Shown one piece after another: positions 3,813 to 28,202 of a stretch of 29,069 nucleotides of DNA. The stretch spans positions 1 to 29,069 of IMG/VR virus record IMGVR_UViG_3300025132_000208; one strand, given 5' to 3'. This stretch comes from a virus. Position 1 is the stretch's first letter. Each line of letters opens with the position of its first letter. Made by a program: the position numbers and the translations under genes. The notes under the pieces are model-generated. The model searched no databases, had not been told where the DNA came from, and saw only the letters and a list, made by a program, of their open reading frames with translations.

Positions 3813-6800
3813 TTATCTATTTGCAACTGTTTGTTGATATGTTGTTCCCCCTACTTCTCTTTGCAACTCTCTAACTTCATCAAACCTGGAAGGATCTGTA
3901 GGTGATATATTACCCATGTGTAGTTTAGTAATTTTTTGCTGTATTCTAAACGACATTGCTACCTCTCTTGTAAAGTTTGTATTTAGTTGAAAAAATTGCA
4001 AAGGGAAAGGAGTAGTATATTTGTTTGCTAAAATAAATTCTCTTTCTTCAGGAGTCAATCTATTCAAATATCTTGCCAAAAGATTTTCAGCTCTATCATA
4101 GTCTCCATCAAAAGTAGCTTTATCATAAATACTTTGTTGGTAATCATAATAACCTTTTGATGCTAACTTAAATTCTCTCAAAGGATCAGTTTCAGATATT
4201 GTAAATTCATCCCTAGATGGCACACCAAATGTAGCTAAATTAATTCCTCTTTTTATAGTTTTCATTCTTGAGTGTGCATTTCTAATTTCCCTAGATTTTT
4301 CACTTCTGTTTAATTTAGGGTTGGCTAAAATTATCATCATTGTATCTTGGAAATCTGAATGAAGTGATGCAACCTGTTCTGTGTATTCATTAGGAGAAAA
4401 TCTACTTGCATTGTAATAAAGAATATCTGTGTAATCTTGTTCAAACTCCCACAACTCATTATATTGCCTTCTAAATTCTGATTGAGCTACAGTATTTTTA
4501 TTAGGGTATACAGACATATTCATACCCATAAAAGCAGGCAATGCAAGTGCAAGTGCTGCATTTTGACCTTCTAATCTAGCAAGTTCTGTAATTTCTTGTA
4601 TAAACAAAGGTGCAAACTCTTGTATACTTTCAACATCTGTTGGAATAAAAGCATCTGCAGCGCTAGTAATTTCATCTCCATAAAAATCCTGCCCTGTTGT
4701 AAGACTAACAATACTTCTTGCACCTGGGCTAAGTTTAGTTCCTAAAAAGTTTACAATAATTTCAGTAGTCTCAGTTTGATAAGGTTGCCCTGTTTGAGAT
4801 AACAATTCACCATTAGGAGCTGTATTATGAACAACTCTATTGATAAGTCTTAAGACAGGTCCCATACCTGCAGTCAAATCTATATTTATATTATCTTTTT
4901 TTAGTTTCAAAAAATTACTTTTACGTGAATCCATTTCTACATTAAAACCATTCAAAACTAAAAGGCTACCTATGCCTGTAACAACTGACGCAAAACCTAT
5001 CATGTCTTTTGCCATTTTACTTGCAATAGATGTATCTGATCTTGAATTTCTTATTACTTCATTGAAAAATAAAACAGGAACTTGAAATCGTGAAGCTACC
5101 CATCTTGGTGCTAACGCCACAGCATTTAGTTCTCCTGCAATTTTTTGCAACCCACCTAACTCTCCTCTACCAGTTCCAGCATTTACAAAACGAACATATT
5201 TTTTCATTTTGTCATTGATTATGTCTTTTGAATCTCCACTATTTTTCAAAACATTATAATAATCTTTAGTTAGCCTATATCTAATTGTATTCAAAAATGC
5301 AGTATGAAATCTTTCACCTGCTCTTATCAAATTACCTACACCAGGAACTTTCTTAATCCAGTTAGATATAAAAGCTTCTTCCCTCAAAGATAAAGGACTA
5401 TCTGGATCTGCAATATACAAACCATAACCTGTACCTTCATCTACGTTAGTTATAGGATTTATAGCTCTGTAATCACTAGGTGTAGTAAACCTAGAAAAAT
5501 CAGGATCTTTATATATGTTAGCCATTGCTCGATTATAATTTGTACTGCTATAAAAAGTTTTCATTGATTTAGCTATATCATTTACATACTTTACAGGATT
5601 CCCACTAAACAACAAACCTTGATTAAATACTGATCCTAAATCTCCACCCAAAACTAACATTCTAGGAATATTTAAAATTTCCACTAAAGAAGTAGTTAGT
5701 TTTTGTCTCAGGCTCATATTAGTAAATTTATCTAATTGTCTTTGCCTTTTTACTGCAGCTATAGCAGCATCATCTAAACCAAAAACCCTAGCCAAAGCAT
5801 TAGCTTCTGTTCTAGTAAGCGCTTCTCCTGCAATATCTAAAGTTTCTTCAAGTTTATCTACACCTATTGGTCCAAATTCATCTATATCACTAAGTTTTAT
5901 ACCTGTTATTTTTTGCAACGCTGAAAGAATATTTAAATGATCAAAAGATCTTATATTTCCTGTTTTTGTTATAGTAAATCTATTGGCGTATGCAAGTAAA
6001 CCTTTAAACTCTTCATAAGACATATCTAAGGGTTCAAATCCTAATTTAGCAAACTGACCACGTGCGCCACCATAAGCATTTTTAGCCTGTATAACAGGAT
6101 CTTCTGAAGATCTAAGACCTTTACCAATTTTTTTAGCCTGACCTTTTCTAAACTCAGTCAAATCTTTTTCATTTCTTTTTATAAGCACAGCTGCTTGATC
6201 AATTAATGCTGGTAATCTTTTTACAACTTCAGAACCTATAACAAAAAACCCTTCAGGAGTTATTTCTCCATTATTAAATAATTTACTATCTCCAGACTCT
6301 CTAACTTGTTTAACTGTTCTAGGAACAATACCTTGCAATATTGCAGGGATTTCTTTATTCGCACTATGGTAAGTTAAGGTTTCATTGATGTAAGCATCTT
6401 CACTATCAAAACCTTTAAAAATACCTGTCAATCTTTTTATAAGATTTATAATTGTTTGCCCTAATGACGTAACAGTTTGTTCTATATTTTTATCATCTAT
6501 AAGTTTCTTACTTGTATTTTTCCCTTTAGCACCCTTATTAAGGTCTCTTAATATCTTTCTTCCATCTTGAGTTTCAAAAGATTTTCTAGTATTATTACTT
6601 CTTGAAAAAGATAACTCATTTTTTCTATTAGGATTTTCAGTTCGCCTTACAAAATTTTTATTAATATTAACATCATCACCAACTAATATTATTTGTCTAT
6701 GTATTCCATTTGTATTTTGCTGTCCAGCTAGCCATGTTATACCATCTACACCTGAATCTTGATAAAGTTTATTCAAGCCATCTAACTTTTTATTTCCTTT

Positions 6801-9800
6801 AGAAAATTTTACTCTGTTATTTTTATAACTTTGTACTATATCTTCTATGAAATAACTATTTTTCTTTAGTAATAAAGATTGACTTATAAATTGTTCATTA
6901 GTATTTGCTGTCCTTGCAACAATAGGATCTACAACTAAATTAAGATCTAAAGACCTATCAATACGTTTACTAAAATCTTTTACAATAAACCATTCTGCTG
7001 CTTTAGCAATTTCAAGAGCAGCAATATTTGATTCTCTTTCTTTTTGAATAGCTTTTGTTTGTAAAGGATATTTTTGCGTAGCAGAAATAAACCTAGTATC
7101 TCCTAATTGTTCATCAGACAATTTTGTAAACGCTGTTATGTAGGCATCATGTAATCTAAAATCGTTATCCCCAAACAAAACATTGCCATATGTTGTTCTT
7201 ACATAATTATCAGTAGGATAATAATCATAAGGATTTGATGATAATCTTCTAGAAGGAAATTGAGTTTCAAATAAATCATTAACTTTCATTAAATCTTTTA
7301 TTATTTTATTATCTTTAGGATCAAAAAATCTCATAGGAACTGCAGTAGAATCACTAAGTAAATCTATAACTGTTCTTACAGTAGCATGAGTACTTATGTT
7401 TTTTGCTAAAAGATTAACATCTAAATTATTATCTATTGCATAAATTTCTTTTTGTTTTAATATCAATTCTTTATAATTTGAATAACCATATTCTCTAGCA
7501 ATAAAATCAACATTATTGTTATAATCTTGTATAACTTTTTCTATTGGCGCACCTATGTAATTATCAAAGTTTAATTCTTTATCAGCATACCTATTTGCAA
7601 GTTGAGTATTATAAAATTTATCCATCAAAGACTCTGCTGCTAGATCTCTGTAATTAGGATCAAGATTGTCAAAAACTCCAAAATTATCTGCACGCAACAC
7701 CCTAGACTCTGGTATTGCAATATTAAATGCTTCAATAGACTGGTTAAATTCATTTAAGCCTGAAGCCTTAGTAAAAGGTTTAGTAGCAAACATATCACCA
7801 GAAAGGTGCATACCAGGTGACAAATAACTGTCAAATATTGGTGTATTAGAATGAATAAAAGAATCGCTTACAGGAAATCCAGTATGAAAAACTAATGCAG
7901 GAGTACCATCTTCATACTTAAATGCACTACCCCTAACAGCAACTTCTTCATCAGGCGTAAGATCATTTAATATTTTTCCATTATCTCTATTTTCAATTAT
8001 CATATCTAAACTTTTTCTAGCTTCGATACTTTGTGTTTGCAAAGTAGTGTAAATAATTATTGGAGAATCATTATCTATTTGAGCAGCTTGTCTAACTATT
8101 TCATCTGTCCCTGATGTATTTTCTAATTGCAAGAGCCGATTTATAACACTTTTATTATTTGGATTTTCTAAAATTTGTTCAGCAAAAGGTTTAGATATAC
8201 TAGATAATAATTTAGTTTCCATATTAGGTATTTTTGCACTATTAATTTCTATTGTTTTTTGTACATCTATAGTTTCAAAATTTCTCATACCTGCAAAATT
8301 ATCTGCATTGATAGCATCTTTATTAAAATAATTCAAAGCATATTCAAACAAATCATTTGCTTTTGTTCTTAACACTTGTGTTGGTAAATCAGCATTTAAG
8401 TCAGCATTGATAAGTGTAGAAATAATTGTTGCAGGTTGCTGTGTAATAATTTCCCTAGAAGATCCAAATAATTGAGGCATTATATTTCCTTCAACTATAT
8501 TATCCAAAACTATTTTAAAATCATCATACGCAGATTCTAAAACTTCATCTGTAACACCTGACAAATCTACTGCAATATTTTCTTTTCTGAAAACTTTATC
8601 AAATAAAGCTTTTAGTGTTTTTGCTAATTGAATAAATATATTATCGTATTTACTTATAAAGTTTGGATCAGTTACTTTTTGTAATCCCCAATAAGAAAAC
8701 AAATCTGCAAATGCTTCATGAACATCAGTAACAAAGTTTACATTTGGTTTAGAAGCATACTTGAATGTGTATATATTGTCCCAGTTTCTAAAATTAATCA
8801 AATCTAATTTATCTAAATCACCTTTATTAGTTATTGGATCTTCTAACAATTTTCTTTTTTGAATTATTTGATTTTTTATTGCTACAGATAAATCATCAAA
8901 CTCTTGTTGAGGCAATGCTCTAAATACATCTGGGAGTGTTGCATGAGCAAATTCATGTATCAAGGTTGCAAGGTCATCTACTTCATCTATACCTTTTTGA
9001 AACAATTGTATTGTAGATGCAAACCTTGGCATTGGATCTGCATACCTTAATATATTTCCATCAATTACTTGAGATAAACTTCCTACTGGATGTGTAACTG
9101 TTCTTCCCATTCCATAAGGTGAATTTAAATCTACATTCTTTGGATCAACTTGGTCAGAAATACCTCTAATTGCAAACTTGATATATTCTTGCTCTCCTAA
9201 ACCTAAGGAACTTGCTAAAAATTTTAGTAGAGGACTAAAAACTTCTTTAGTTGTTTGCCTGGAAGCCTGACTAATATTCAAAACCTCACCCACACCATCT
9301 ATGTAGTCATCAATGTTTTCAACTTTTTTGGTAATTTCTTTACCACGAATTTTAGCATTGATTGTATTTTCTGATGGGTTGAACCTAGCAAGAGATGGTT
9401 CAGTTTCACCTATTCTATTTATTCCTCTTTGTTCTTTAAAATCTCTTATAGCTTCTAATGAACGCCTTACATTATCTGCTCTTTGCAAATTAAAATCACT
9501 AGGAGATCTTCTTAAAATACCTTCTTGCAAAATCAATCTAGGTTCATCAATTACTGTAAATAAATCTCCTGGTAATCCTAAGTCAGATGGTGGAAAATTT
9601 ATATCTCCATAAGTAATTGGTCCAGACTCTCCAGCTTGCTGTAATTCTTGAGAGGTTCTTCTAACTGGATTAGCTAAAGGCTGATCAGATAATGCTCCTA
9701 AGGTAAAATCAAAAGCAGCAGCATTTTGTTGCTCAGGAGTTACTGCGTTTCTAGCAAAAGATATTTCTTCTAACGATAGTTGGTTAGAACCAGGAACATC

Positions 9801-10493
9801 TTTAGGATTATTATCTACCTGTTCTAATTGCTCTGCGTTTCTAAGAACCTTGTTACCATATGACCTGTTATATTTATTTATACTTTTGAATACTACACCA
9901 CCACCTAACAAACCACCAACTAAAGCTGCTCCTACTTGAAATGGTACTGGTAATCCTGCTTCAACTGCAGCATTAGCAACTCCTTTTGCAACTGGAACTG
10001 CACCAAGTCCTATGGCTGCTTCACCTGCAAACCTTTTACTAAATCCAGATACTCCAGTTGCATTAGTTTTTACAACTGGTTCTATAATAGCTGCTGCTGG
10101 TCTAGTAAGTAATTTAGCTTTGTTACTTGCTCTTAGTGCAGCTGAAACCCTGTTACCAACACCTGCTGTTCCAGCCAATAAAGCTATTTCAAAAGGAGAA
10201 GTTAGTTCAGTTATTTCATTTATAACACCTTCAAATGTTACTTCATCTGGAACTAAAGGATCTATTATTTCTGCTGCTCTTTTAAAAGTTGGAACTTCTT
10301 TTAATCTTTCTAAACCTTGATCAATCAAACCTAATCCAGGAACTAAGTTTTGTCTATACGCTCCTCTCAAAGGAGTAGGTAGTGATTCACCTATTCTTTC
10401 TGCTGTACCCCTAGGAATTATAGGTTGAAATAAATTAGAAACAAAACTAGTAAAATCTGGAACTCTAGGATTAGGAAACTGCTGTTGTACCAT
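3813..10493 (-). CDS. Giant polyvalent virion protein with zincin-like and ADP-ribosyltransferase-like regions
   Basis: This 2226-aa protein starts at an ATG (10493) behind AGGAG. Residues 155-203 are Gly/Ala-rich and hydrophobic and could enter membranes. A zinc-metallopeptidase signature follows: HEFAH at 513-517 and HEAFADLF at 592-599, offering H513, H517 and E593 as ligands with E514 as catalyst. ALVFHTGF (866-873) and a later GVDGITWLAG (1248-1257) plus RQIILVGDDVNI resemble first and last elements of ADP-ribosyltransferase-like domains of phage polyvalent proteins, with a long insert. Residues 1605-1805 (GGDLGSVFNQGLL, REEAFISNWIKKVPGVG, NAGTGRGELGG, PRWVASRFQVPVL) match the conserved C-terminal region I know from large phage polyvalent proteins. 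Hydrophobic segments lie at 1831-1850 and 1977-1996. Its place between portal-linked genes and scaffold suggests an internal or ejected virion protein. Enzymatic activity is inferred. Confidence 0.75.
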   Translation of the reverse strand: MVQQQFPNPRVPDFTSFVSNLFQPIIPRGTAERIGESLPTPLRGAYRQNLVPGLGLIDQGLERLKEVPTFKRAAEIIDPLVPDEVTFEGVINEITELTSPFEIALLAGTAGVGNRVSAALRASNKAKLLTRPAAAIIEPVVKTNATGVSGFSKRFAGEAAIGLGAVPVAKGVANAAVEAGLPVPFQVGAALVGGLLGGGVVFKSINKYNRSYGNKVLRNAEQLEQVDNNPKDVPGSNQLSLEEISFARNAVTPEQQNAAAFDFTLGALSDQPLANPVRRTSQELQQAGESGPITYGDINFPPSDLGLPGDLFTVIDEPRLILQEGILRRSPSDFNLQRADNVRRSLEAIRDFKEQRGINRIGETEPSLARFNPSENTINAKIRGKEITKKVENIDDYIDGVGEVLNISQASRQTTKEVFSPLLKFLASSLGLGEQEYIKFAIRGISDQVDPKNVDLNSPYGMGRTVTHPVGSLSQVIDGNILRYADPMPRFASTIQLFQKGIDEVDDLATLIHEFAHATLPDVFRALPQQEFDDLSVAIKNQIIQKRKLLEDPITNKGDLDKLDLINFRNWDNIYTFKYASKPNVNFVTDVHEAFADLFSYWGLQKVTDPNFISKYDNIFIQLAKTLKALFDKVFRKENIAVDLSGVTDEVLESAYDDFKIVLDNIVEGNIMPQLFGSSREIITQQPATIISTLINADLNADLPTQVLRTKANDLFEYALNYFNKDAINADNFAGMRNFETIDVQKTIEINSAKIPNMETKLLSSISKPFAEQILENPNNKSVINRLLQLENTSGTDEIVRQAAQIDNDSPIIIYTTLQTQSIEARKSLDMIIENRDNGKILNDLTPDEEVAVRGSAFKYEDGTPALVFHTGFPVSDSFIHSNTPIFDSYLSPGMHLSGDMFATKPFTKASGLNEFNQSIEAFNIAIPESRVLRADNFGVFDNLDPNYRDLAAESLMDKFYNTQLANRYADKELNFDNYIGAPIEKVIQDYNNNVDFIAREYGYSNYKELILKQKEIYAIDNNLDVNLLAKNISTHATVRTVIDLLSDSTAVPMRFFDPKDNKIIKDLMKVNDLFETQFPSRRLSSNPYDYYPTDNYVRTTYGNVLFGDNDFRLHDAYITAFTKLSDEQLGDTRFISATQKYPLQTKAIQKERESNIAALEIAKAAEWFIVKDFSKRIDRSLDLNLVVDPIVARTANTNEQFISQSLLLKKNSYFIEDIVQSYKNNRVKFSKGNKKLDGLNKLYQDSGVDGITWLAGQQNTNGIHRQIILVGDDVNINKNFVRRTENPNRKNELSFSRSNNTRKSFETQDGRKILRDLNKGAKGKNTSKKLIDDKNIEQTVTSLGQTIINLIKRLTGIFKGFDSEDAYINETLTYHSANKEIPAILQGIVPRTVKQVRESGDSKLFNNGEITPEGFFVIGSEVVKRLPALIDQAAVLIKRNEKDLTEFRKGQAKKIGKGLRSSEDPVIQAKNAYGGARGQFAKLGFEPLDMSYEEFKGLLAYANRFTITKTGNIRSFDHLNILSALQKITGIKLSDIDEFGPIGVDKLEETLDIAGEALTRTEANALARVFGLDDAAIAAVKRQRQLDKFTNMSLRQKLTTSLVEILNIPRMLVLGGDLGSVFNQGLLFSGNPVKYVNDIAKSMKTFYSSTNYNRAMANIYKDPDFSRFTTPSDYRAINPITNVDEGTGYGLYIADPDSPLSLREEAFISNWIKKVPGVGNLIRAGERFHTAFLNTIRYRLTKDYYNVLKNSGDSKDIINDKMKKYVRFVNAGTGRGELGGLQKIAGELNAVALAPRWVASRFQVPVLFFNEVIRNSRSDTSIASKMAKDMIGFASVVTGIGSLLVLNGFNVEMDSRKSNFLKLKKDNINIDLTAGMGPVLRLINRVVHNTAPNGELLSQTGQPYQTETTEIIVNFLGTKLSPGARSIVSLTTGQDFYGDEITSAADAFIPTDVESIQEFAPLFIQEITELARLEGQNAALALALPAFMGMNMSVYPNKNTVAQSEFRRQYNELWEFEQDYTDILYYNASRFSPNEYTEQVASLHSDFQDTMMIILANPKLNRSEKSREIRNAHSRMKTIKRGINLATFGVPSRDEFTISETDPLREFKLASKGYYDYQQSIYDKATFDGDYDRAENLLARYLNRLTPEEREFILANKYTTPFPLQFFQLNTNFTREVAMSFRIQQKITKLHMGNISPTDPSRFDEVRELQREVGGTTYQQTVANR

Positions 10494-14292: not shown

Positions 14293-15669
14293 TTACCACC
14301 TGTTTACTGTTATTAATTTTGTTGCACCTGCAGCTCTTGCATATCCAAAGTTTACCACAAGTCCATATGTTATTGCCTTAATTCCATGGTTGAAAGCGTC
14401 CCTTGGTTCTCTTCCAACAACATTTCCCTCTCTGTCAGTTCTCCATGTGTAGACATGAATTTGGTCATCAAATGGATTTGAACAACCACCCAATTCTGAT
14501 ATAACACCTTTACATTTTGGACTGATAATCAAGTTAGGTTGTTTAGTTACTGGGTTTTCTTTTAGAAAAGTATTAAACCTTTCTATCCCATCTAGTATAC
14601 CAACTCTTTCAGACTGCATATAAAGTCCAGCTTTTTCTAACCAAGTATCAACTGGTCTTGATTCACCAAAATTATGAGCTGCAATATCAATTACTCCATG
14701 TTCTACGTCTTTCCACCATGGTCTCATAGTACAAATCTCTATAATTTCTTCTGTAATCTTCTCCCTTTCAAACACTTCATCAATTATTCTAACCTGTTCA
14801 CCTATGATTTGTACAGCCATTACAGCATATGCTGACTTTGTTACCTGAGAATAACCTGGATCAATCCACAGGTGTACAGGTTCATCCATAATATACTCTG
14901 CTTTATCTGAAACATGTTTTGATGAGTCAAACATATTGTGTACAAGACCTTTTGGAGGTGCTGGTTTTCCAGCAACACGTTCATTAAACCAATCTTCAGA
15001 GTGCAATCTTTGTAACGATAAGATTTCTTCATCTTCTCTACCACCTGGATACACTTCCTGGTTAGTCCATGAAGGTAGTGAGAAAGATATTGCGTCATCT
15101 TCTTTGTTATAGAACTGCCAAGACTCCCATTGTGATGGATACCATCCTAATGACATTTCAAACGTCCCTTCAAGAAACAAATATCCACGTTTTTCTGCAA
15201 TACGACCACGTAATCTCAAAAAACTCTCTTGATCTATCTGTGACGCCTCACATGCAACTATCATTCTAGGTGCTTCCATAGCCAAACTTCTGTAGTCTTG
15301 TGCAGACTTAGTTTTTATCTGGAAAGTACCTGGATCTGTTGCTGTTCCACACACCACAGTCATTTCACCTGGATCTATTCTTTTAGTTTGTTTTACCAAA
15401 AAACCTAGTTTCGACAATATATCAGTCAAATAGTTCCACTCTGCTCTGGTTCTTTCGTAATCTCTGGCTACTAACCAGACAATATCACCATTCTGGAACT
15501 CATCTAGTGTGTTAATAATCGATAATGCACCAAGAAAGCTTTTTCCTGCTCGTTCTCCACCAGCCACTAACTTGATTCTGGCTTTGTAATCAAGGATCTG
15601 GTCTTGTTCTTTCCAAGTCCTAAAGCCAACAGCTTCTAATAACGCTTTTCTATCTTCTTTTAAAAACAT
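14293..15669 (-). CDS. terL: Terminase large subunit (ATPase and nuclease)
   Basis: This 458-aa protein is the DNA-packaging motor. The N-terminal ATPase has a Walker A at 37-44 (GGERAGKS) and a Walker B-like strand ending in acidic E141 (RMIVACEAS); the usual aspartate before it is Cys. GYLFLEGTF (162-170) fits the coupling motif. The C-terminal RNase H-like nuclease shows LWIDPGYS (D270), HGVIDIAAHN (D328) and REPRDAFNHGIKA (D424), giving three acidic residues for two-metal catalysis. The start is fixed by a GGAGGT site 4 nt upstream. No small terminase gene is recognisable upstream. Its leader can fold into a structure that would hide this ribosome-binding site. Confidence 0.95.
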   Translation of the reverse strand: MFLKEDRKALLEAVGFRTWKEQDQILDYKARIKLVAGGERAGKSFLGALSIINTLDEFQNGDIVWLVARDYERTRAEWNYLTDILSKLGFLVKQTKRIDPGEMTVVCGTATDPGTFQIKTKSAQDYRSLAMEAPRMIVACEASQIDQESFLRLRGRIAEKRGYLFLEGTFEMSLGWYPSQWESWQFYNKEDDAISFSLPSWTNQEVYPGGREDEEILSLQRLHSEDWFNERVAGKPAPPKGLVHNMFDSSKHVSDKAEYIMDEPVHLWIDPGYSQVTKSAYAVMAVQIIGEQVRIIDEVFEREKITEEIIEICTMRPWWKDVEHGVIDIAAHNFGESRPVDTWLEKAGLYMQSERVGILDGIERFNTFLKENPVTKQPNLIISPKCKGVISELGGCSNPFDDQIHVYTWRTDREGNVVGREPRDAFNHGIKAITYGLVVNFGYARAAGATKLITVNRW

Positions 15670-15673
15670 TGTA

Positions 15674-15736
15674 CCTCCTATATTAGCATAAACCCCAAAA
15701 TGTAGGAGGCGAAGCTTACACCAGGGGCTTATGCTA
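15674..15736 (-). promoter_or_regulatory. terL leader stem and candidate ribosome-site-sequestering pseudoknot
   Basis: Read on the minus strand, TAGCATAAGCCCC (15736-15724) pairs with GGGGTTTATGCTA (15696-15684) over all 13 positions, including one G-U pair; on the plus strand that position is an A-C mismatch. An inner helix GGTGTA/TACATT brings CCTCCTA (15709-15703) into the loop. This is a perfect complement of TAGGAGG (15680-15674), the terL ribosome-binding site just 3' of the stem. Pairing would form a pseudoknot and block terL translation. The pairing is seen in the sequence; the regulatory effect is inferred. Confidence 0.65.
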
Positions 15737-15747
15737 TTAGCTAAAAA

Positions 15748-15771
15748 TGTTAGTTACGTACCATACTAACA
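15748..15771. repeat. Reversed-order inverted pair TGTTAGT / ACTAACA
   Basis: TGTTAGT (15748-15754) and ACTAACA (15765-15771) form a 7-bp stem with a 10-nt loop. The same hexamers as the dyad family occur here in the opposite order. It lies in the leader between the candidate late promoter and the terL structure. Confidence 0.7.
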
Positions 15772-15837
15772 GATGTAACCCTAAAGAGGTCCATTCGGAA
15801 GAAAGTACCCCTGATACGACATCCAGCTAATACCATT

Positions 15838-15867
15838 ATTCTACAGTCTACTAACAACTGTTGGCAA
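15838..15867 (-). promoter_or_regulatory. Candidate sigma70-type late promoter
   Basis: On the minus strand TTGCCA (15867-15862) and TAGAAT (15843-15838) are separated by 18 nt, each matching five of six consensus bases. It points at terL and would give a leader of about 160 nt. The imperfect dyad at 15851-15864 occupies the spacer and overlaps the -35 box, a classical repressor arrangement. Confidence 0.45.
15851..15864. promoter_or_regulatory. Imperfect CTAACA-NN-TGTTGG dyad over the late promoter
   Basis: CTAACAACTGTTGG differs by one base from the CTAACA-NN-TGTTAG dyads at 3750, 17161 and 17752 and keeps the 2-nt centre. Its overlap with the candidate -35 box supports an operator reading. 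Confidence 0.45.
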
Positions 15868-15923
15868 ACAATAAGAGAAAAGAGAGGGGGAAACCTTTAA
15901 GGAAGGGGGTGAGATATGAGATA

Positions 15924-15953
15924 ACTAACAACCCCTTTAAAAGGGTTGTTAGT
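15924..15953. repeat. Long CTAACA hairpin, copy B
   Basis: ACTAACAACCC (15924-15934) and GGGTTGTTAGT (15943-15953) form an 11-bp perfect stem around CTTTAAAA. A bare CCTTTAAGG core without arms lies about 25 nt to its left. No T-run follows. It is part of the family with 821-853 and 27828-27863. Confidence 0.88.
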
Positions 15954-16030
15954 AACAACAAGGGGTAGAAAAAATAGGATCAAAAAAATATACAAGGGAC
16001 TCCTATGGCAACAACAAGCTGTCAAGATGG

Positions 16031-16100
16031 TACCTACCACCACATACATACACATCACAACAGCATACCCCCACCTATCACCATTACCACCACCACCATC
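16031..16100. other. Nearly G-free C/A-rich tract
   Basis: The plus strand of this 70-nt stretch contains a single G (16063) and many CAC, ACC and CCAC steps, so the other strand is G/T-rich with repeated GGTGG. Such strand asymmetry in the divergent intergenic region fits a single-strand-binding or unwinding element, a replication start or a packaging signal. Nothing in the sequence decides between them. Confidence 0.6.
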
Positions 16101-16304
16101 CGTTCTATAAGATTGGTCTATTTGCTTAGGGACGAGATGTTTGGGGGAGTTTGAGATTCCCAAATTAGCGAACGTCTGCCCCTCTTACGCACATACTTCA
16201 CGCACGAAGAGAGGTGGAATTCTGAGGAACTCTCACGTTCATTGGCACGCCCAGGCGCACCCACCTGCGCGCGAATTTGAACGCAGACTTTTTCCCAGTT
16301 TTTT

Positions 16305-16325
16305 CACTCTCTCTTCTAGAGAGTG
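16305..16325 (+). terminator. Stem-loop followed by TTTT
   Basis: CACTCTCT (16305-16312) pairs with AGAGAGTG (16318-16325) over a 5-nt loop and is followed by TTTTG. This is a short terminator-like element on the plus strand lying ahead of the rightward operon. Together with the next hairpin it could act as an attenuator or shield the early promoter from read-through. Confidence 0.45.
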
Positions 16326-16351
16326 TTTTGTCGTTTGAGATTGAAATTTTT

Positions 16352-16409
16352 CCCCCCGTCAAATCCCTCTCTTCGAAAGAGAGGGTTTTGACTGGGGGAA
16401 TTTTTTTTT
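16352..16409 (+). terminator. Long intrinsic terminator upstream of the early operon
   Basis: Nested pairing: CCCCC/GGGGG, then GTCAAA/TTTGAC, then CCCTCTCTT/AAGAGAGGG closed by a CGA loop, 20 pairs with two mismatches. The right arm is followed by AA and nine T, so it terminates on the plus strand. The minus-strand side has no matching T-run. It is odd for a strong plus-strand terminator to sit just before the first rightward gene. Confidence 0.7.
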
Positions 16410-16417
16410 GGTAGACT
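16388..16417 (+). promoter_or_regulatory. Candidate early promoter overlapping the terminator
   Basis: TTGACT (16388-16393) and TAGACT (16412-16417) are separated by 18 nt. A transcript starting near 16424 would begin with the stem-loop at 16425-16442. The -35 box lies inside the right arm of the terminator hairpin and the spacer contains the T-run, so terminator and promoter share sequence. Consensus match is fair and no experimental support exists. Confidence 0.4.
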
Positions 16418-16424
16418 TGAGATA

Positions 16425-16464
16425 TCAGTCGATTTCGGCTGAGCAAACCAAGTCATGGTGACTT
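16425..16464 (+). other. Two leader stem-loops before the 171-aa gene
   Basis: TCAGTCG/CGGCTGA with loop ATTT (16425-16442) contains one T-G pair that is allowed only in a plus-strand RNA. AAGTCA/TGACTT with loop TGG (16450-16464) is perfect. They would be the 5' end of the early transcript if the candidate promoter is correct, and they start the hairpin series that continues through the next gene. Confidence 0.6.
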
Positions 16465-16504
16465 CGATGGAACACCTATGGCACAAAATTGAAGGAGTTA
16501 GACT

Positions 16505-17020
16505 ATGTCTAAGACGAACACAAAAGTGTCCCCAAAGGGGACAAAATCAACCCAATTGCTAAAGCAATTGGAGGGCAGGAGTTTAGAAACGAAGTTTCTA
16601 AAAGCCTTGAAAATCGGAGTTCCTACGGAACTCCAGCCAAAGGGTTTTCTAAAGAAAACCCAATCTCACAAACTCCTCCTTTCCTTAGGAAAGGAGATTG
16701 GATTCGACTCAAAAACCCTAAAGGGTTTTGGGAAAACGAAACGAGACGTTAGAGAACTACGTTCTCTAATCTCAGCCCAAATTCATTGGGACGAAGTCCC
16801 AATCTCCAAGAAACGAAAGACGAAGTCTTTCGTGACAGGTGGGAACGGCGACAAGTCGATGGCACCTGCCGAGACTCCAAAGGAGTCTGGCACACGTAAA
16901 AAGTCCCCAAAGGGGACTCGTGCGAAGTCTCCAAAGGAGACTCCAGTCAGCCGAACGGAGTTCGACCAACTTGTGCAGATGGTGCAAGGCATAGCCTTGA
17001 AACTGGGCGCTAAGTCCTAA
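16505..17020 (+). CDS. Basic hypothetical protein (171 aa) encoded by a hairpin array
   Basis: This is the first gene of the rightward operon, with ATG at 16505 and an AAGGAG site. The protein is very basic and low in complexity, with repeated SPKGT, SPKGTR and SPKET segments, a Lys/Ser/Thr/Pro-rich middle, and a C-terminal helix (residues ~150-168, RTEFDQLVQMVQGIALKLG) that may oligomerise. The charge suggests nucleic-acid binding. I know no family for it. The DNA is extraordinary: at least 17 small perfect hairpins cover about 60% of the frame, and their loops fall in all three codon phases, so amino-acid repeats alone do not create them. The last hairpin has the TAA stop as its loop. It may be a real protein, a structural RNA/DNA with a tolerated frame, or both. 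Confidence 0.6.
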   Translation: MSKTNTKVSPKGTKSTQLLKQLEGRSLETKFLKALKIGVPTELQPKGFLKKTQSHKLLLSLGKEIGFDSKTLKGFGKTKRDVRELRSLISAQIHWDEVPISKKRKTKSFVTGGNGDKSMAPAETPKESGTRKKSPKGTRAKSPKETPVSRTEFDQLVQMVQGIALKLGAKS

Positions 17021-17067
17021 GGACTTCACACACACAGACGTGCGCTCGGCTTAGGTCGAGCCACGTC
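16527..17067 (+). repeat. Array of small perfect hairpins
   Basis: Successive stem-loops lie at 16527-16543, 16552-16571, 16582-16602, 16616-16634, 16642-16661, 16676-16696, 16712-16729, 16749-16769, 16785-16803, 16813-16833, 16836-16868, 16872-16888, 16902-16918, 16926-16942, 16952-16964, 16985-16999, 17012-17026 and 17037-17067. Stems are mostly 7-9 bp; loops are typically AAA, GAA, TAC, TTA or TAAA. Stem sequences differ, so this is not copying of one repeat. Three stems are closed as C-GAA-G, a loop known to be unusually stable in DNA. The hairpin at 17037-17067 contains a G-T pair that favours plus-strand RNA. Confidence 0.9.
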
Positions 17068-17156
17068 AAAAAGCCAAGCGAGAACAGGCGAAACACGTAC
17101 ACGTATACGTACGAGTCTAGCGAGATTGGACGACTCGCTACTGATGAGCCAAGTCC

Positions 17157-17178
17157 CACACTAACAGGTGTTAGTGTG
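17157..17178. promoter_or_regulatory. Extended CTAACA-GG-TGTTAG dyad
   Basis: A perfect 10-bp inverted repeat with a GG centre has CTAACAGGTGTTAG (17161-17174) as its core, flanked by CACA and TGTG. It lies about 30 nt before the 117-aa gene and is followed by GCATAAACTT, which recurs near the next dyad. It could be an operator or an RNA hairpin in the gap between the first and second early genes. Confidence 0.7.
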
Positions 17179-17206
17179 TGCATAAACTTGAAAAAAGGAG
17201 CAAATT

Positions 17207-17560
17207 ATGAACGCCTTAAAAACACGTGCAACACATGGCAAATATTGGATAAATGGGAACGAGCGAACACGTACGAGAAATTGGACTGTGCGCTATGGGG
17301 AGTACGAGGATATATACACTCGTGCAGGTGAAATCTTGGAAAAGATTTCCAAGAGTCAAAAATTTTGGGTAGGCTACGAGCCGACCGAACGAGAGGACGA
17401 TTGCTCATGTGAGCAGATATGTTCGTACTGCAAGGCTCAGATGACCAAGCGAGTGAACGAGAGATTGAGCGAGGGTGCTGAGATTGGATATCAACATGAT
17501 GGGACACCTATCATGTACGAGCAAGTGAGCAAAACCAAAGTATTCTTATACTACGTATAA
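17207..17560 (+). CDS. Hypothetical early protein with Cys cluster (117 aa)
   Basis: ATG at 17207 follows AAAAAAGGAG. The sequence has no family I recognise. A CSCEQICSYC segment near residues 67-76 supplies four Cys that could bind zinc. The rest is polar with aromatic residues and no membrane segment. The coding DNA also contains hairpins like those of the preceding gene: TCTTGGAAA/TTTCCAAGA with loop AGA (17334-17354), TGCTCA/TGAGCA (17402-17415) and ACATGAT/ATCATGT (17494-17516). It is dense in the pentamers ACGAG and GCGAG. Confidence 0.7.
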   Translation: MNALKTRATHGKYWINGNERTRTRNWTVRYGEYEDIYTRAGEILEKISKSQKFWVGYEPTEREDDCSCEQICSYCKAQMTKRVNERLSEGAEIGYQHDGTPIMYEQVSKTKVFLYYV

Positions 17561-17576
17561 GCGAGAGGAGAAAATT

Positions 17577-17744
17577 ATGAACGAGTGTACAACGTGCATT
17601 TACGACCGAGTAGGCGAGATAATCGCCTACTGCTTACCCCACTTACGAGCGAGTGAGGGTGGGTGTGTGAAATGTGGACAAAAGGTCTACGATTTTGAGG
17701 GTGGAGTGTGTGTTGCGTGTGATGTTGTGGAAGTGAAAAACTAA
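17577..17744 (+). CDS. Small zinc-ribbon-like protein (55 aa)
   Basis: ATG at 17577 lies behind GAGGAG. The 55-residue product contains CTTC, CVKC and CVAC pairs plus a further Cys, the pattern of a small zinc-binding ribbon. Function is unknown; such mini zinc proteins in early operons often bind nucleic acid or host proteins. Its coding sequence includes a perfect hairpin GTAGGCGA/TCGCCTAC (17610-17630). The stop codon lies in a CTAACA hexamer. Confidence 0.7.
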   Translation: MNECTTCIYDRVGEIIAYCLPHLRASEGGCVKCGQKVYDFEGGVCVACDVVEVKN

Positions 17745-17751
17745 CAGAGTA

Positions 17752-17765
17752 CTAACAAGTGTTAG
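17752..17765. promoter_or_regulatory. CTAACA-AG-TGTTAG dyad
   Basis: A perfect 6-2-6 dyad lies 8 nt after the 55-aa gene, with another single CTAACA at 17741-17746. It is followed by GCATAAG and, further on, GCATAAACTT, the octamer context also seen after the 17157 dyad. Confidence 0.65.
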
Positions 17766-17774
17766 CGCATAAGC

Positions 17775-17806
17775 ACGTGGGGTAGGGCATAAACTTTACC
17801 CCACGT
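17775..17806 (+). promoter_or_regulatory. 10-bp hairpin directly before a ribosome-binding site
   Basis: ACGTGGGGTA (17775-17784) and TACCCCACGT (17797-17806) pair perfectly around a 12-nt loop. The GGAG of the 109-aa gene begins about 5 nt after the stem. No T-run follows, so a translational or RNA-stability role is more likely than termination. Confidence 0.6.
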
Positions 17807-17821
17807 AATAGGAGCATAAAA

Positions 17822-18151
17822 ATGAGATACGAGATAAGCGACCGAGTATTAGACCGAATTGCTAAGTTGGAGCAGTTCGAGGAGGAGCATAATGAGACTG
17901 CGTGGAGTGTGTGGGTAGATGGAATTGAGAGACCACGAAAACCTATGACGATAGTTCAAGCAGGGGAATATGCTGAGAGCATATTTGATTGTGGGTATGG
18001 GGACGAAGTCGTGGAGATAAAGCCATTTGAAACTGGGGAGCAACAGGAGATGAACGAGATACATGTGCAGGAGATGAACGAGGTATTATGGAGTGTGAGG
18101 GAGATGTATGTGCATGGATTTGGAATTGCGAGGAGGGGATATGAAAAATAG
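17822..18151 (+). CDS. Hypothetical protein with VWVxGxE domain (109 aa)
   Basis: ATG at 17822 has an AGGAG site 8 nt upstream. Residues ~28-70 (WSVWVDGIERPRKPMTIVQA then a helix and YGDEVVEI) resemble the complete products of two genes just downstream at 18414 and 18568, so the three appear to be paralogues of a compact beta-alpha-beta domain. Function is unknown. The coding DNA carries one more small hairpin with a 3-nt loop (AATATGCT-GAG-AGCATATT, 17967-17985). Confidence 0.72.
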   Translation: MRYEISDRVLDRIAKLEQFEEEHNETAWSVWVDGIERPRKPMTIVQAGEYAESIFDCGYGDEVVEIKPFETGEQQEMNEIHVQEMNEVLWSVREMYVHGFGIARRGYEK

Positions 18152-18287
18152 ATGGGAACGTAGGGACGCAAAAGAACATAGCAAGAGGAGATTTGTATCA
18201 GACAATCGCAGGTCAGTTCAAGTATCCTCTCGCATGTGGTACGAGTTGGACAAAACAAAACAAACTGCGAGGAAAAAATACAGATAG
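18141..18287 (+). CDS. Small basic protein (48 aa)
   Basis: ATG at 18141 lies 5 nt after an AGGAGG and overlaps the previous stop by 11 nt. The product is very rich in Arg and Lys (for example KNRWERRDAKEHSKRRF) and ends in a basic tail, suggesting nucleic-acid binding. It is short and unrecognised; the strong ribosome-binding site and tight packing are the case for it being real. Confidence 0.6.
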   Translation: MKNRWERRDAKEHSKRRFVSDNRRSVQVSSRMWYELDKTKQTARKKYR

Positions 18288-18295
18288 GAGCATAC

Positions 18296-18421
18296 ATGGA
18301 TTACGAAACATACAAGCACTTAATCGAGTTGGATTGCGTAGTGTGTGTGATAGATGATAAAGGCTACTTGCACGAGTGCATAGATTGTGTAGAAAATAAG
18401 ATAGGAGTTGAGCATGAATAG
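18296..18421 (+). CDS. Tiny Cys-pair protein (41 aa)
   Basis: The start is the ATG at 18296 behind ATAGGAG rather than an earlier GTG at 18236 that lacks a site. The product MDYETYKHLIELDC... has CVVC and CIDC pairs spaced to bind one zinc. Function is unknown. Its end overlaps the next gene by 8 nt. Confidence 0.6.
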   Translation: MDYETYKHLIELDCVVCVIDDKGYLHECIDCVENKIGVEHE

Positions 18422-18575
18422 AAAAGAATTGTATTCAGTATGGGTAGGTGGAGTTGAAGTTAACGACCACCTAATAGATTACGAAAGTGCGTTTGGATTA
18501 GCATACAGGTACCAAGTTTTGGGATATGATGACGTGCATATCGCATTGGCTTCATTGGAGGAAACTAATGGGTAA
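18414..18575 (+). CDS. VWVGGVE-domain small protein (53 aa)
   Basis: ATG at 18414 follows ATAGGAG. The protein (ELYSVWVGGVEVNDHLIDYE, then an alpha helix and LGYDDVHIA) is a full-length copy of the same small domain as its neighbour at 18568 and part of 17822. The layout looks like beta-hairpin, helix, beta-strand. Function is unknown. Tandem arrangement indicates duplication within the phage lineage. Confidence 0.7.
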   Translation: MNRKELYSVWVGGVEVNDHLIDYESAFGLAYRYQVLGYDDVHIALASLEETNG

Positions 18576-24516: not shown

Positions 24517-24927
24517 ATGGTAGACCAACAAGAATTACGTGAGAAATGTATCATGTATTCTCAAATCAAAAAGCGAAAAGCAGATGTTGATAGAGCATAC
24601 AGAGAACTTGGTGAGGAAATTATCAGGGACTTAGATAACATGGAAGCACTAAAGGCAGACTTCATTGGTGAGCATGGGGAGATTATGAACGTAGTAATCA
24701 AGAACAATTATGATTACGACATCATGACACTACGCAAACTACATGAGGTAGAGTCGCAATTAGTTTCTCCAAAAGACTTGAACAAGTTGATATACGAGAG
24801 TACAGAGGAGAAAGTAAACAAGAGATTAGCAACAGAGTTAATCAAGAGGGGTGGTGTCGTTGCCGACATAATCAAAGAGGCACGAGCAATCAAAAGTAGA
24901 AAATACATAACAATAAGAGAGGCATAA
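24517..24927 (+). CDS. Helical hypothetical protein (136 aa)
   Basis: ATG at 24517 has a strong AAAGGAGGT site. The N-terminal 60 residues form charged helices (KKRKADVDRAYRELGEEIIR). The C-terminus is basic (IIKEARAIKSRKYITIREA). It is directly followed by the 290-aa gene, so it belongs with the replication genes. A helper or DNA-associated role is possible but no motif proves it. Confidence 0.7.
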   Translation: MVDQQELREKCIMYSQIKKRKADVDRAYRELGEEIIRDLDNMEALKADFIGEHGEIMNVVIKNNYDYDIMTLRKLHEVESQLVSPKDLNKLIYESTEEKVNKRLATELIKRGGVVADIIKEARAIKSRKYITIREA

Positions 24928-25806: not shown

Positions 25807-27819
25807 ATGACAAAACTATTGGACGCTGCGTTGGATTACGCACAACAAGGGATGAGTGTTATCCCATTGGTTCCCAAAGATAAAAAGCCTTTGCTTTATT
25901 CGTGGAAAGAATTTCAGAGTAAACGTATGGGTATTGGGGACATGAGAGGATTTTGGAAAGACTCTCCTGAATCAAACATAGGTATTGTAACTGGTGCTAT
26001 ATCAGGGATTACTGTGATTGATGTTGATGGAGAGGAAGGACTTGCATCTTTGAGAGGCGCAGGTATCAAACTTCCTGACACTCACATAGTAAAAACTCCA
26101 AAGGGTTGGCACTTTTACTACAAGTATAATAACTTGTTCAAGACTGGTGCAGGGTTTCTTAAGAACGTAGATGTTAGAAATGACGCAGGATATGTGGTTG
26201 CTCCACCATCCATTGCGTCAGATAAAGACTACTACCTTCTTGAGGATAATGGTGGTGTGTTTTCTGAGTTTGGGGTAGTACCTGAACAATTCTTAGGTAG
26301 ACAACCAAAGACAGTTGAGCCTAACGACAAAGAGAGTGTTGAGCCATGGGTTACAGAGGCACTAGAAAATGGTGCGCCTGAGGGACAAAGAGATGTTACT
26401 GCTACTAGAGTGGCAGGATATTTTTGGGCGAGAGGTATACAAGAGGACATCTTGCAAAGCATACTGGTTGGATTTGGGCAGAAATGTACTCCACCAATGA
26501 ACGAGAATGACATTGCAAGGATAGTCAAGTCTGTAACTAGGTATCAACAAACTAAGATTAGAAACTTCACAGAGGGCAAGATACCTGATCCTATGTGTAA
26601 AGTTGAGGACAATGAATCAGTTGTAGTCAACTGGGCAGAGAATGGAGTCATGATTACATTTTCTCCTACAGGTGGTAGGAATATGTGTGACCTGACTGTT
26701 GAAACCTTTCAGAGTGGTGTACTTCTCGGTCCTGTGAACTTCGACTTGGTATCATTGAGCAGACGTAGAGATGCAGTATCTGTCTTGAGAAACAGACAGA
26801 AAGGTGATGACTGGGACGCAATACTAGACGTAGCTTGTAGAGTTGCGAAAAATGCTAGAGAGGATGACGCAGACTTCATTGATACATCTGTCACCAAGAT
26901 ACAAGTAAACCCTAACAGGTGGCTGATTGATGGGTTACTCCCATTGAAAAAGCCAACTATCTTGTTCGCTACTGGTGGTACAGGTAAGTCATTCTTTGGG
27001 ACTGCTATATCTATGGCAGTATCAAGTATGATAGAAGTGATTGAGGGATTTGAGCCTTTGGATACAGGTCAAGTGTTATACCTTGACTGGGAGACAGACG
27101 AGGAGGAGTTTACTTGGAGAAAACAAGCACTCATCAATTGTTTGAACAATAGAGGGGTGTCAGGAGGCGACTTAGAGGAATCGGACTTCCCTGTCTCTTA
27201 CAGGCGCTGTACAGACAGTCTCGTGGCATTACAGCCACGTTTAAGGAAGTGGTTAGATAGCAATTCATGTCCTTTGATTGTTATTGACTCGCTTATTCCT
27301 GCATTAGACGCAGACGCAAACGACTCTGAAACTGCTAGGCGATTCATGAATATTGTCAGGTCTTTTGACACGACAGTATTGGTGTTGAGTCACACAAGTA
27401 AAGAGGGCAAACTATTCGGTTCTACTTTTTGGTGGAACTTGGCTCGTAATGTTTGGTCTGTTAGCAAGGAGCAGGACATGGGTGAGAGTTACACCGACAT
27501 TGCTTTCACCCATGAAAAGTCTAACAACTCTAGGTTGTATCCACCAATTGGGTTACGTTTCTCCCACGAGAACAACATAGCCTCATTTGAGAGGATTGAA
27601 ACATCACAGTTGAGTAACAACATTGCTAAGTCTATACCAATCAAGGTTAGAATTAGAGAGTTGCTAAAGACAGGTAGGTTGATGTCCTCTAAGGAGATAG
27701 CAGAGGAGTTAGACGCAACAGTAGAGGCAGTAGGGATGGCTTTGAATAGAGGGAAGTCAACATCATTCTCTGAGATACATGATCCTATAGGCAACAGGAA
27801 GTGGAGAATAATTAACTAA
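25807..27819 (+). CDS. Primase-polymerase / RepA-like helicase fusion
   Basis: The 670-aa protein combines functions of replication initiation. Residues 1-160 are a Prim-Pol domain: ITVIDVDGEEG supplies D72 and D74, GWHFYY gives H102, and VDVRNDAGYVVAPPS completes the active-site region. Residues ~190-245 resemble the primase C-terminal helical domain (PEGQRDVTATRVAGYFWARG). Residues ~375-560 are a RecA-fold helicase: Walker A GGTGKS at 390-395, VLYLDWETDEEE, Walker B IVIDS (D494) and a sensor-like VLVLSHTSK. The C-terminus (618-650) is a helix-turn-helix-like segment. Plausibly it primes and unwinds phage DNA. No DNA polymerase gene is visible in the window. The ATG at 25807 directly follows the upstream gene. 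Confidence 0.9.
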   Translation: MTKLLDAALDYAQQGMSVIPLVPKDKKPLLYSWKEFQSKRMGIGDMRGFWKDSPESNIGIVTGAISGITVIDVDGEEGLASLRGAGIKLPDTHIVKTPKGWHFYYKYNNLFKTGAGFLKNVDVRNDAGYVVAPPSIASDKDYYLLEDNGGVFSEFGVVPEQFLGRQPKTVEPNDKESVEPWVTEALENGAPEGQRDVTATRVAGYFWARGIQEDILQSILVGFGQKCTPPMNENDIARIVKSVTRYQQTKIRNFTEGKIPDPMCKVEDNESVVVNWAENGVMITFSPTGGRNMCDLTVETFQSGVLLGPVNFDLVSLSRRRDAVSVLRNRQKGDDWDAILDVACRVAKNAREDDADFIDTSVTKIQVNPNRWLIDGLLPLKKPTILFATGGTGKSFFGTAISMAVSSMIEVIEGFEPLDTGQVLYLDWETDEEEFTWRKQALINCLNNRGVSGGDLEESDFPVSYRRCTDSLVALQPRLRKWLDSNSCPLIVIDSLIPALDADANDSETARRFMNIVRSFDTTVLVLSHTSKEGKLFGSTFWWNLARNVWSVSKEQDMGESYTDIAFTHEKSNNSRLYPPIGLRFSHENNIASFERIETSQLSNNIAKSIPIKVRIRELLKTGRLMSSKEIAEELDATVEAVGMALNRGKSTSFSEIHDPIGNRKWRIIN

Positions 27820-27881: not shown

Positions 27882-28202
27882 ATGACTGCAAGAGGTACTT
27901 GGAAAGCATCTGAAAGACGAATTGCCGAGAAACTAGGGGGTAAAAGAGTCCCTGTTACTGGCAGAGAAAGAGGTTCTGCACCTGATGTAGAACACAAACT
28001 ATACGCAATAGAACACAAATATGGTAAAGTTTTATCATCCAGGTTGCAGACTGCAATTGAACAAGCATACGCAGCTGCTGAAGGAACAGATAAAGTACCA
28101 ATCGTTACCTTTGAACACGCAAGAAAAGGTAACATAGGTAATATAACAGGTGTACTGTTGTTAGTAGATGATTTTATTAAAATATCGGAACAAAAGGTTT
28201 AA
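27882..28202 (+). CDS. PD-(D/E)XK nuclease, Holliday-junction-resolvase-like
   Basis: ATG at 27882 lies behind AAGGAGAG. The 106-aa protein shows E11 in an N-terminal helix, then SAPDVEHK (D35) and YAIEHKYGK (E44-x-K46), the metal-binding and catalytic core of PD-(D/E)XK nucleases. A later basic/hydrophobic strand (VPIVTFEHARKG) follows a helix, as in Hjc-like resolvases and VRR-NUC-type enzymes. Branched-DNA resolution before packaging is the likely role. It is the last gene of the rightward operon. Confidence 0.82.
   Translation: MTARGTWKASERRIAEKLGGKRVPVTGRERGSAPDVEHKLYAIEHKYGKVLSSRLQTAIEQAYAAAEGTDKVPIVTFEHARKGNIGNITGVLLLVDDFIKISEQKV

Follow-up and report, generated by a model that had tools for sequence, protein, structure and literature searches.

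What keeps the first early gene of a phage threaded through a row of small, perfect hairpins, with its start codon and its stop codon both inside one? The gene lies in IMGVR_UViG_3300025132_000208, a single viral record of 29,069 bases derived from a metagenome, and the window, as the term is used below, is the whole of that stretch. The virus is one that infects bacteria; a search for a bacterial host or prophage found none. Minus-strand late genes (terminase, portal, capsid and others) occupy the left side and plus-strand early genes the right, the two sets diverging at about 15.67-16.50 kb. The earliest-placed of the early genes (16505-17020, plus strand) encodes 171 amino acids, and the array of hairpins runs through it.

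The surroundings have features of their own. The divergent intergenic region (15670-16500) contains the switch in GC skew, along with a conserved palindrome and a C-rich tract. The palindrome, ACTAACAACCC...GGGTTGTTAGT, is strong and is followed by a G-poor, C/A-rich tract (15930-16110); both have counterparts in relatives with and without the array. Two terminator-like hairpins with T tails (16305-16385, plus strand) stand upstream of the 171-aa gene, and directly 3' of them is a promoter-like site, TTGACT-18-TAGACT (within 16305-16420, plus strand), in a region where the count of promoter matches is not above chance. The late-transcript leader that precedes the terminase (about 15640-15850, minus strand; GGAGGC...CCTAACGAGG...CCCCGGATACGAC as read on the plus strand), is apparently conserved in most relatives, array or not; it is possibly a regulatory RNA and matches nothing in Rfam. 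On the other side of the gene, the plus strand is markedly rich in CGAG at 17000-18500, through coding and noncoding DNA (22 instances in 17-18 kb and 11 in 18-19 kb, with 0-7 in every other kb). Far to the left, between the portal and scaffold genes, a 2226-aa protein (3813-10493, minus strand) carries a HEFAH metalloprotease-like motif and has no Pfam or PHROG match.

Number and form of the hairpins

Fifteen non-overlapping perfect hairpins, with stems of at least 5 bp and loops of 3-4 nt, lie within 16505-17020; 13 of them have stems of at least 7 bp and 8 of at least 8 bp. Together they cover 53% of the bases, a little below the 60% or so given in the preliminary description of this DNA. 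The array begins ahead of the gene, at 16450, and extends to 17178, comprising over that distance 18 perfect hairpins, their stems 6-9 bp long and their loops 3-4 nt. Seventeen of at least 6 bp fall within 16450-17026, in agreement with the earlier figure of at least 17.

Could so many arise by chance or by the coding needs of the protein? Four kinds of shuffle, each replicated 500 times over 16505-17020, were scored for hairpins with a stem of 7 bp or more and a loop of 3-4 nt. Shuffling dinucleotides gave a mean of 0.06 (maximum 2), shuffling synonymous codons within the protein 0.28 (maximum 3), permuting codons 0.07 (maximum 1), and drawing synonymous codons at random by phage usage 0.15 (maximum 2), against the 13 observed. 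The folding energy of 16500-17070 is likewise far from that of shuffled sequence (z = -11.9 on the plus strand and -11.7 on the minus strand). The comparison that the preliminary description had called for thus comes out in favor of the array. The remainder of the 29-kb window contributes just 14 hairpins of the class scored in the shuffles to a total of 27.

Two of the hairpins lie outside the gene altogether: AAGTCA-TGG-TGACTT upstream (16450-16464) and CACACTAAC-AGGT-GTTAGTGTG downstream (17157-17178). Within it are TGTCCCC-AAA-GGGGACA (16527-16543), CCAATTGC-TAAA-GCAATTGG (16552-16571), GGGTTTTC-TAAA-GAAAACCC (16642-16661), AAAACCC-TAAA-GGGTTTT (16712-16729), AGACTCC-AAA-GGAGTCT (16872-16888), AGTCCCC-AAA-GGGGACT (16902-16918), AGTCTCC-AAA-GGAGACT (16926-16942) and CAAGGC-ATA-GCCTTG (16985-16999), together with others considered below in connection with covariation. 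The last to touch the gene, AAGTCC-TAA-GGACTT (17012-17026), uses the stop codon as its loop, as had been noticed at the outset, and loops do start in all three codon phases, also as first described. The claim that the stems are all different needs qualification: their letters mostly differ, but the hairpins at 16527 and 16902 are near-copies, as are those at 16872 and 16926, and these encode S/T-P-K-G/E-T/S repeats. Such two-copy repeats account for just 4 hairpins and were rejected as the source of the array. A repeat array of one sequence (CRISPR, REP, MITE or iterons) was also rejected: there are few two-copy families, of about 20 nt, and the stem letters differ.

What the hairpins share is their shape. 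Over the arrays of this phage and its relatives, the excess of stems above chance is highest at 7 bp and nearly gone past 10. Loops of 3 nt number 118 and those of 4 nt 82 (28, plus 54 whose end bases could pair), with 9 of 5 nt, from which length on they are near background. The closing pair is C-G in 62% of hairpins, and a search of the array hairpins for any stem or flank motif beyond that pair found none. The format C(GNA)G, counted on either strand, accounts for 49% in plus-strand genes, against a background of 27% (p 4e-4), and for 36% in noncoding DNA, against 16% (p 0.016).

Covariation and distribution among relatives

Relatives were gathered by way of the neighboring terminase, giving 70 loci plus a further set at 64-72% identity, and the region upstream of the terminase was read in each. 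The comparison of the window with one close relative, L002, is the most direct view of how stems change. Sixteen pairs are altered on both sides, two of them in the terminator-like hairpin at 16365-16385, which is otherwise not conserved. In the array proper there are 14 two-sided changes, against one pair left unpaired. They include those in the hairpin that contains the start codon, TTAGAC-TAT-GTCTAA (16498-16512), which in L002 reads TTTGGC-TAT-GCCAAA. Four adjacent pairs are compensated in TTTAGAAAC-GAA-GTTTCTAAA (16582-16602); two each in GGAGTTCC-TAC-GGAACTCC (16616-16634), CTCCTTTCC-TTA-GGAAAGGAG (16676-16696) and ATTGGGAC-GAA-GTCCCAAT (16785-16803); and one each in TTAGAGAAC-TAC-GTTCTCTAA (16749-16769) and ACGAAAGAC-GAA-GTCTTTCGT (16813-16833). 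Pairing holds in 97.6% of cells in the L047 group, with 7 two-sided changes against 3.4 in shuffles; when the partner is slid by 1-3 columns, pairing falls to 28-42% and two-sided changes to 0-1. The compensatory changes that the preliminary description proposed to look for in homologues are present.

The stems also change less than what surrounds them. Between close relatives they have changed at 2% of sites, against 14% for the rest of the gene (p = 5e-5): L047 and L059 differ at 3 of 144 stem sites and 39 of 279 other gene sites, and L047 and L038 at 2 of 160 stem sites and 81 of 543 elsewhere (p 9e-8). To judge from these alignments, folded nucleic acid is under selection at the array, its stems covarying and diverging more slowly than the rest, and on the same grounds the stem letters vary freely between viruses while the hairpin shape is retained.

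There is another way to keep hairpins perfect. Template switching during replication, that is, quasipalindrome correction, might both make them and maintain them with no functional selection. It would suit the several compensated changes that fall in adjacent pairs (CCCC and CC runs), the scarcity of intermediates and the retention of structure without sequence. It would not lead one to expect stems that persist as the rest diverges, a pattern resembling purifying selection, nor hairpin density limited to a single locus, and it leaves unexplained why one stem length, one loop length, one closing pair and one type of loop are preferred. I regard this origin as quite improbable.

The array recurs at the same locus in at least seven lineages: the window group (with L002 and L003), the L013 group, the L047 group, L052/L066/L055, L053/L057, L111/L112 and L124. 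It is absent from two, the L004-L010 and L015-L046 groups. These array-less groups stand apart on the terminase tree, which makes the window group the closest kin of the L004 group, as its sister, with a support of 97, and so the array was lost (or gained) more than once. Nor does it keep to one gene. More than 10 hairpins of L111 lie in noncoding DNA, and its copy of the gene family, farther right, has 3; the roughly 45 hairpins of L124 extend over 3 kb, across a minus-strand gene, noncoding DNA and several plus-strand genes. Within array DNA, hairpin density is 14.7 per kb in plus-strand genes, 12.1 per kb in a minus-strand gene and 7.9 per kb in noncoding DNA, and the array is therefore not bound to one transcript sense or frame. 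It is a regional feature, not a property of the 171-aa gene. What was first described as a gene made of hairpins is better described as a gene lying in their path, in that the array passes through noncoding DNA and through genes of both orientations; selection on folded nucleic acid, claimed for the whole gene, holds up, but its confinement to the gene does not.

The gene does encode a genuine protein, as judged by profile matches to its family in array-bearing relatives (E 1e-16 to 1e-52) and by pN/pS of 0.32-0.71. The family evolves fast: the flanks of the window and L003 are 94-95% identical, yet blastn alignments end inside the gene, and direct searches with it, as protein or DNA, brought in no new relatives. 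The short ORF of L002 had suggested a broken frame, an idea that was dropped, the frame being open up to the end of the contig. Members share a K-V-T-G/S-G-x-x-D motif, and the protein is basic, with a predicted helical N-terminal domain and C-terminal helix.

Perhaps the array is there to be bound by this protein, or another of the phage, an oligomeric hairpin binder that coats or bridges it as an autoregulator or as a scaffold for segregation or packaging. The family was detected in loci that bear the array but in no array-less locus, and its predicted form, basic and helical, would be apt. However, some members (the array-poor L113, L117 and L120) have few hairpins, and the fold model is weak (mean pLDDT 63), a search with it finding no fold match. 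I consider such a role unlikely. The same members bear on the case that had been named as refuting the array, homologues that keep the protein and lose the stems: homologues of the protein nearly without hairpins do exist.

RNA or DNA

Is the structure read as RNA or as DNA? The best reason to think of RNA lies just downstream of the gene, where 17086-17154 (plus strand) is a probable type II hammerhead ribozyme. It scores 31.9 bits over the full length of the model RF02276, whose gathering score is 37, and has the conserved core CTGATGA/GAAA and three complete stems, with a predicted cut after C17117. A stem of the element is compensated in L003. Type II hammerheads are present in the L013 group (39.7 bits for one), and type III in L066 and L113; none was found in the 5 array-less loci searched. 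Hammerheads of both types thus recur on the 3' side of the first early gene, in array-bearing relatives as well as the array-poor L113 (upstream offset about 2448); other positions are 5137-5201 and 4513-4579 in L156 and 4768-4822 in L073. L156 also has a tRNA-Ala (TGC) gene (6584-6663), which Rfam scores as tmRNA too, with like matches in L028 and L113.

It is probable, going by the motif, that a putative hammerhead cuts the early transcript shortly after the array gene, which makes a live rival of an RNA dense in hairpins whose 3' end is defined. Such a transcript, its end freed by the ribozyme, could be stable or else unreadable to nucleases, Rho or regulators of translation. The strong folding of the plus strand and the placing of start and stop codons in hairpins accord with it, and so does the distribution of hammerheads. 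So too do the loop purines, which are chiefly on the coding strand, even in the single minus-strand gene.

Against it are the pairs themselves. RNA function normally tolerates G-U, and a cruciform would not: a G-T on one strand corresponds to C-A on its complement, and a cruciform requires pairing in both. Among 242 hairpins, 212 are perfect, and the internal mismatches of the rest are 8 G-T, 4 A-C and 18 other, which amounts to no preference for wobble (8 vs 4, p 0.39). The first non-pair beyond the stem tells the same story, with 42 G-T (36 expected) and 58 A-C (61 expected). Loop length peaks at 3 nt, and the superstable RNA tetraloops (UNCG, GNRA) are few. Folding is equally strong on the minus strand, arrays occur also in noncoding DNA and in a gene of opposite sense, and Rfam gave only weak sub-threshold matches over the array, with no family at gathering score. 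An RNA-level element is in my judgment somewhat unlikely, and its specific forms proposed earlier, a packaging or decoy RNA, drew no support from the analysis. The evidence favors a DNA-level element, as cruciforms or single-strand hairpins, over a structured mRNA.

What else in these genomes might act on DNA hairpins? In each of the 5 array-bearing contigs whose skew was profiled, the array coincides with the GC-skew switch. The window encodes a fusion of Prim-Pol, PriCT_1 and RepA-like AAA_25 helicase (25807-27819, plus strand; PF09250, PF08708, PF13481), followed by a putative Hjc-like Holliday junction resolvase (27882-28202, plus strand; PHROG 2002, E 1.7e-5). In the resolvase, E11, D35, E44 and K46 are invariant, and its model (pLDDT 71) best matches, in the PDB, archaeal Hjc 1gef (E 0.01, probability 0.85). 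Array-bearing contigs of sufficient length have the resolvase directly after or close to Prim-Pol, so that it co-occurs with the array; the array-less G016, G017 and G020 carry RusA. The Prim-Pol of G020 is 85% identical to that of the window, yet G020 has RusA. Prim-Pol was set aside as an array-specific partner, being present in array-less relatives too. The earlier suggestion that it loads onto single-strand hairpins is compatible with an origin here, though by the same token not specific to the array. Intergenic GTTAC repeats number 7-17 in array-less contigs against 2-6 in array-bearing ones, apart from two exceptions of 10-11 (p 8e-4), as if these repeats and hairpins were alternative architectures.

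Two other gene distributions may be recorded. A 136-aa protein with no assigned function (24517-24927, plus strand) is encoded in 7 contigs that bear the array, in 1 that is array-poor and in 0 of 4 array-less ones. An AAA_5 ATPase paired with a VWA-like domain (L135, 7426-10214), resembling CobS/CobT-like phage genes, occurs in array-bearing and array-poor relatives and not in the window.

A proposed role and its precedents

I propose, with confidence a little short of even, that the array is a DNA-level element at the divergence point and presumed origin, recognized by shape rather than sequence, whose hairpins extrude as structure-specific sites. A row of mini-hairpins, of about 7 bp with a 3-nt loop and a C-G closing pair, sits where late and early genes diverge. 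Transcription in both directions would be expected to leave the DNA there negatively supercoiled, and replication may begin there as well. Once supercoiled or single-stranded, the repeats would extrude as small cruciforms or hairpins, offering structure-specific sites to the replication and recombination machinery of the phage: perhaps to the Prim-Pol-helicase, for loading or priming, perhaps to the Hjc-like resolvase, for processing, or to both. The first early gene would have been drawn into the array, its codons tolerating it. The model draws on the skew switch, the division between resolvase and RusA, the contrast in GTTAC and the precedent of pRN1.

Several points stand against it. Transcription alone can produce a skew switch where divergent genes meet. 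Prim-Pol occurs without the array, the link to the resolvase comes down to three array-less contigs in two lineages, and G050 and G052, which are array-poor, have the resolvase with few hairpins. Hammerheads beside several arrays point to RNA-level processing, the coding-strand bias of loop purines is equally expected from mRNA function, and stems of 7 bp are short for cruciforms.

If the proposal is correct, here would be a genetic element conserved by shape alone and shaping the codons of a real gene, with covariation of DNA hairpins readable straight from close phage relatives. It would allow a test, in a natural setting, of whether small cruciforms arise and function in cells, and it would point to replication origins or control regions of a type that escapes searches by sequence. 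Homology searches cannot detect elements that consist of shape only, and similar ones may therefore sit unnoticed in other viromes.

Among known systems, the hairpin promoters of phage N4 are closest in format. They too have short stems, 3-nt loops, a C-G closing pair and a GNA loop (PMC4496689), a format found in about half of the C-G-closed triloops of the arrays rather than in all hairpins. N4 promoters extrude from supercoiled DNA, their stem letters partly free so long as pairing holds, and it is in this that the array is likened to them (PMC4496689). Extrusion requires the C-G pair and the 5' G and 3' A of the loop, and it takes place at sub-physiological superhelical density (PMC4496689). 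Might the array then be a set of promoters for a virion RNA polymerase? N4 has three, with conserved bases read by that enzyme, whereas arrays comprise 13-45 sites in which just the closing pair is conserved, with no common stem or start motif. No RNA polymerase family was matched by Pfam or PHROGs among the window proteins scanned, the 2226-aa protein included, although a very divergent one could escape and the record may be incomplete. Despite the shared format, this function seems highly improbable.

In RNA viruses, coding regions with conserved RNA structure offer a second parallel, the same bases writing a protein and a fold and changing in compensation. Unlike them, the array belongs to a double-stranded DNA phage, has no preference for wobble pairs, and extends past genes and into one of opposite sense. 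The element at 17086-17154 does have a described counterpart: type II hammerhead ribozymes (RF02276; PMC3088659) share both its core and its permuted topology, but it is a neighbor of the array and not the array itself.

In genomic setting the array resembles the stem-loop origins of pRN1-type plasmids (PMC4234260) and the ssiA and ssiB priming hairpins of RSF1010 (PMC4434180), each accompanied in the same genome by a replication protein with an archaeo-eukaryotic primase domain. In the pRN1 family of Prim-Pol plasmids the stem-loop at the origin keeps its structure and not its sequence (PMC4234260), as the array does. However, pRN1 has one stem-loop of 100 bp, and RSF1010 one site of 40 nt per strand with sequence-specific contacts; here there are many unrelated mini-hairpins, partly inside a gene, whose role at an origin is conjectural. 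The array is real, selected and recurrent. As the preliminary description surmised, the open-access literature yielded no phage system, nor any counterpart, of this kind. It may be, with a probability somewhat below even, that tens of unrelated hairpins of 7 bp and 3 nt are selected through coding and noncoding DNA as a sequence-free element of shape only, an origin or processing site for structure-specific enzymes with a protein gene written inside. By its look the array is a control or replication element that works through shape, of a kind not described before.
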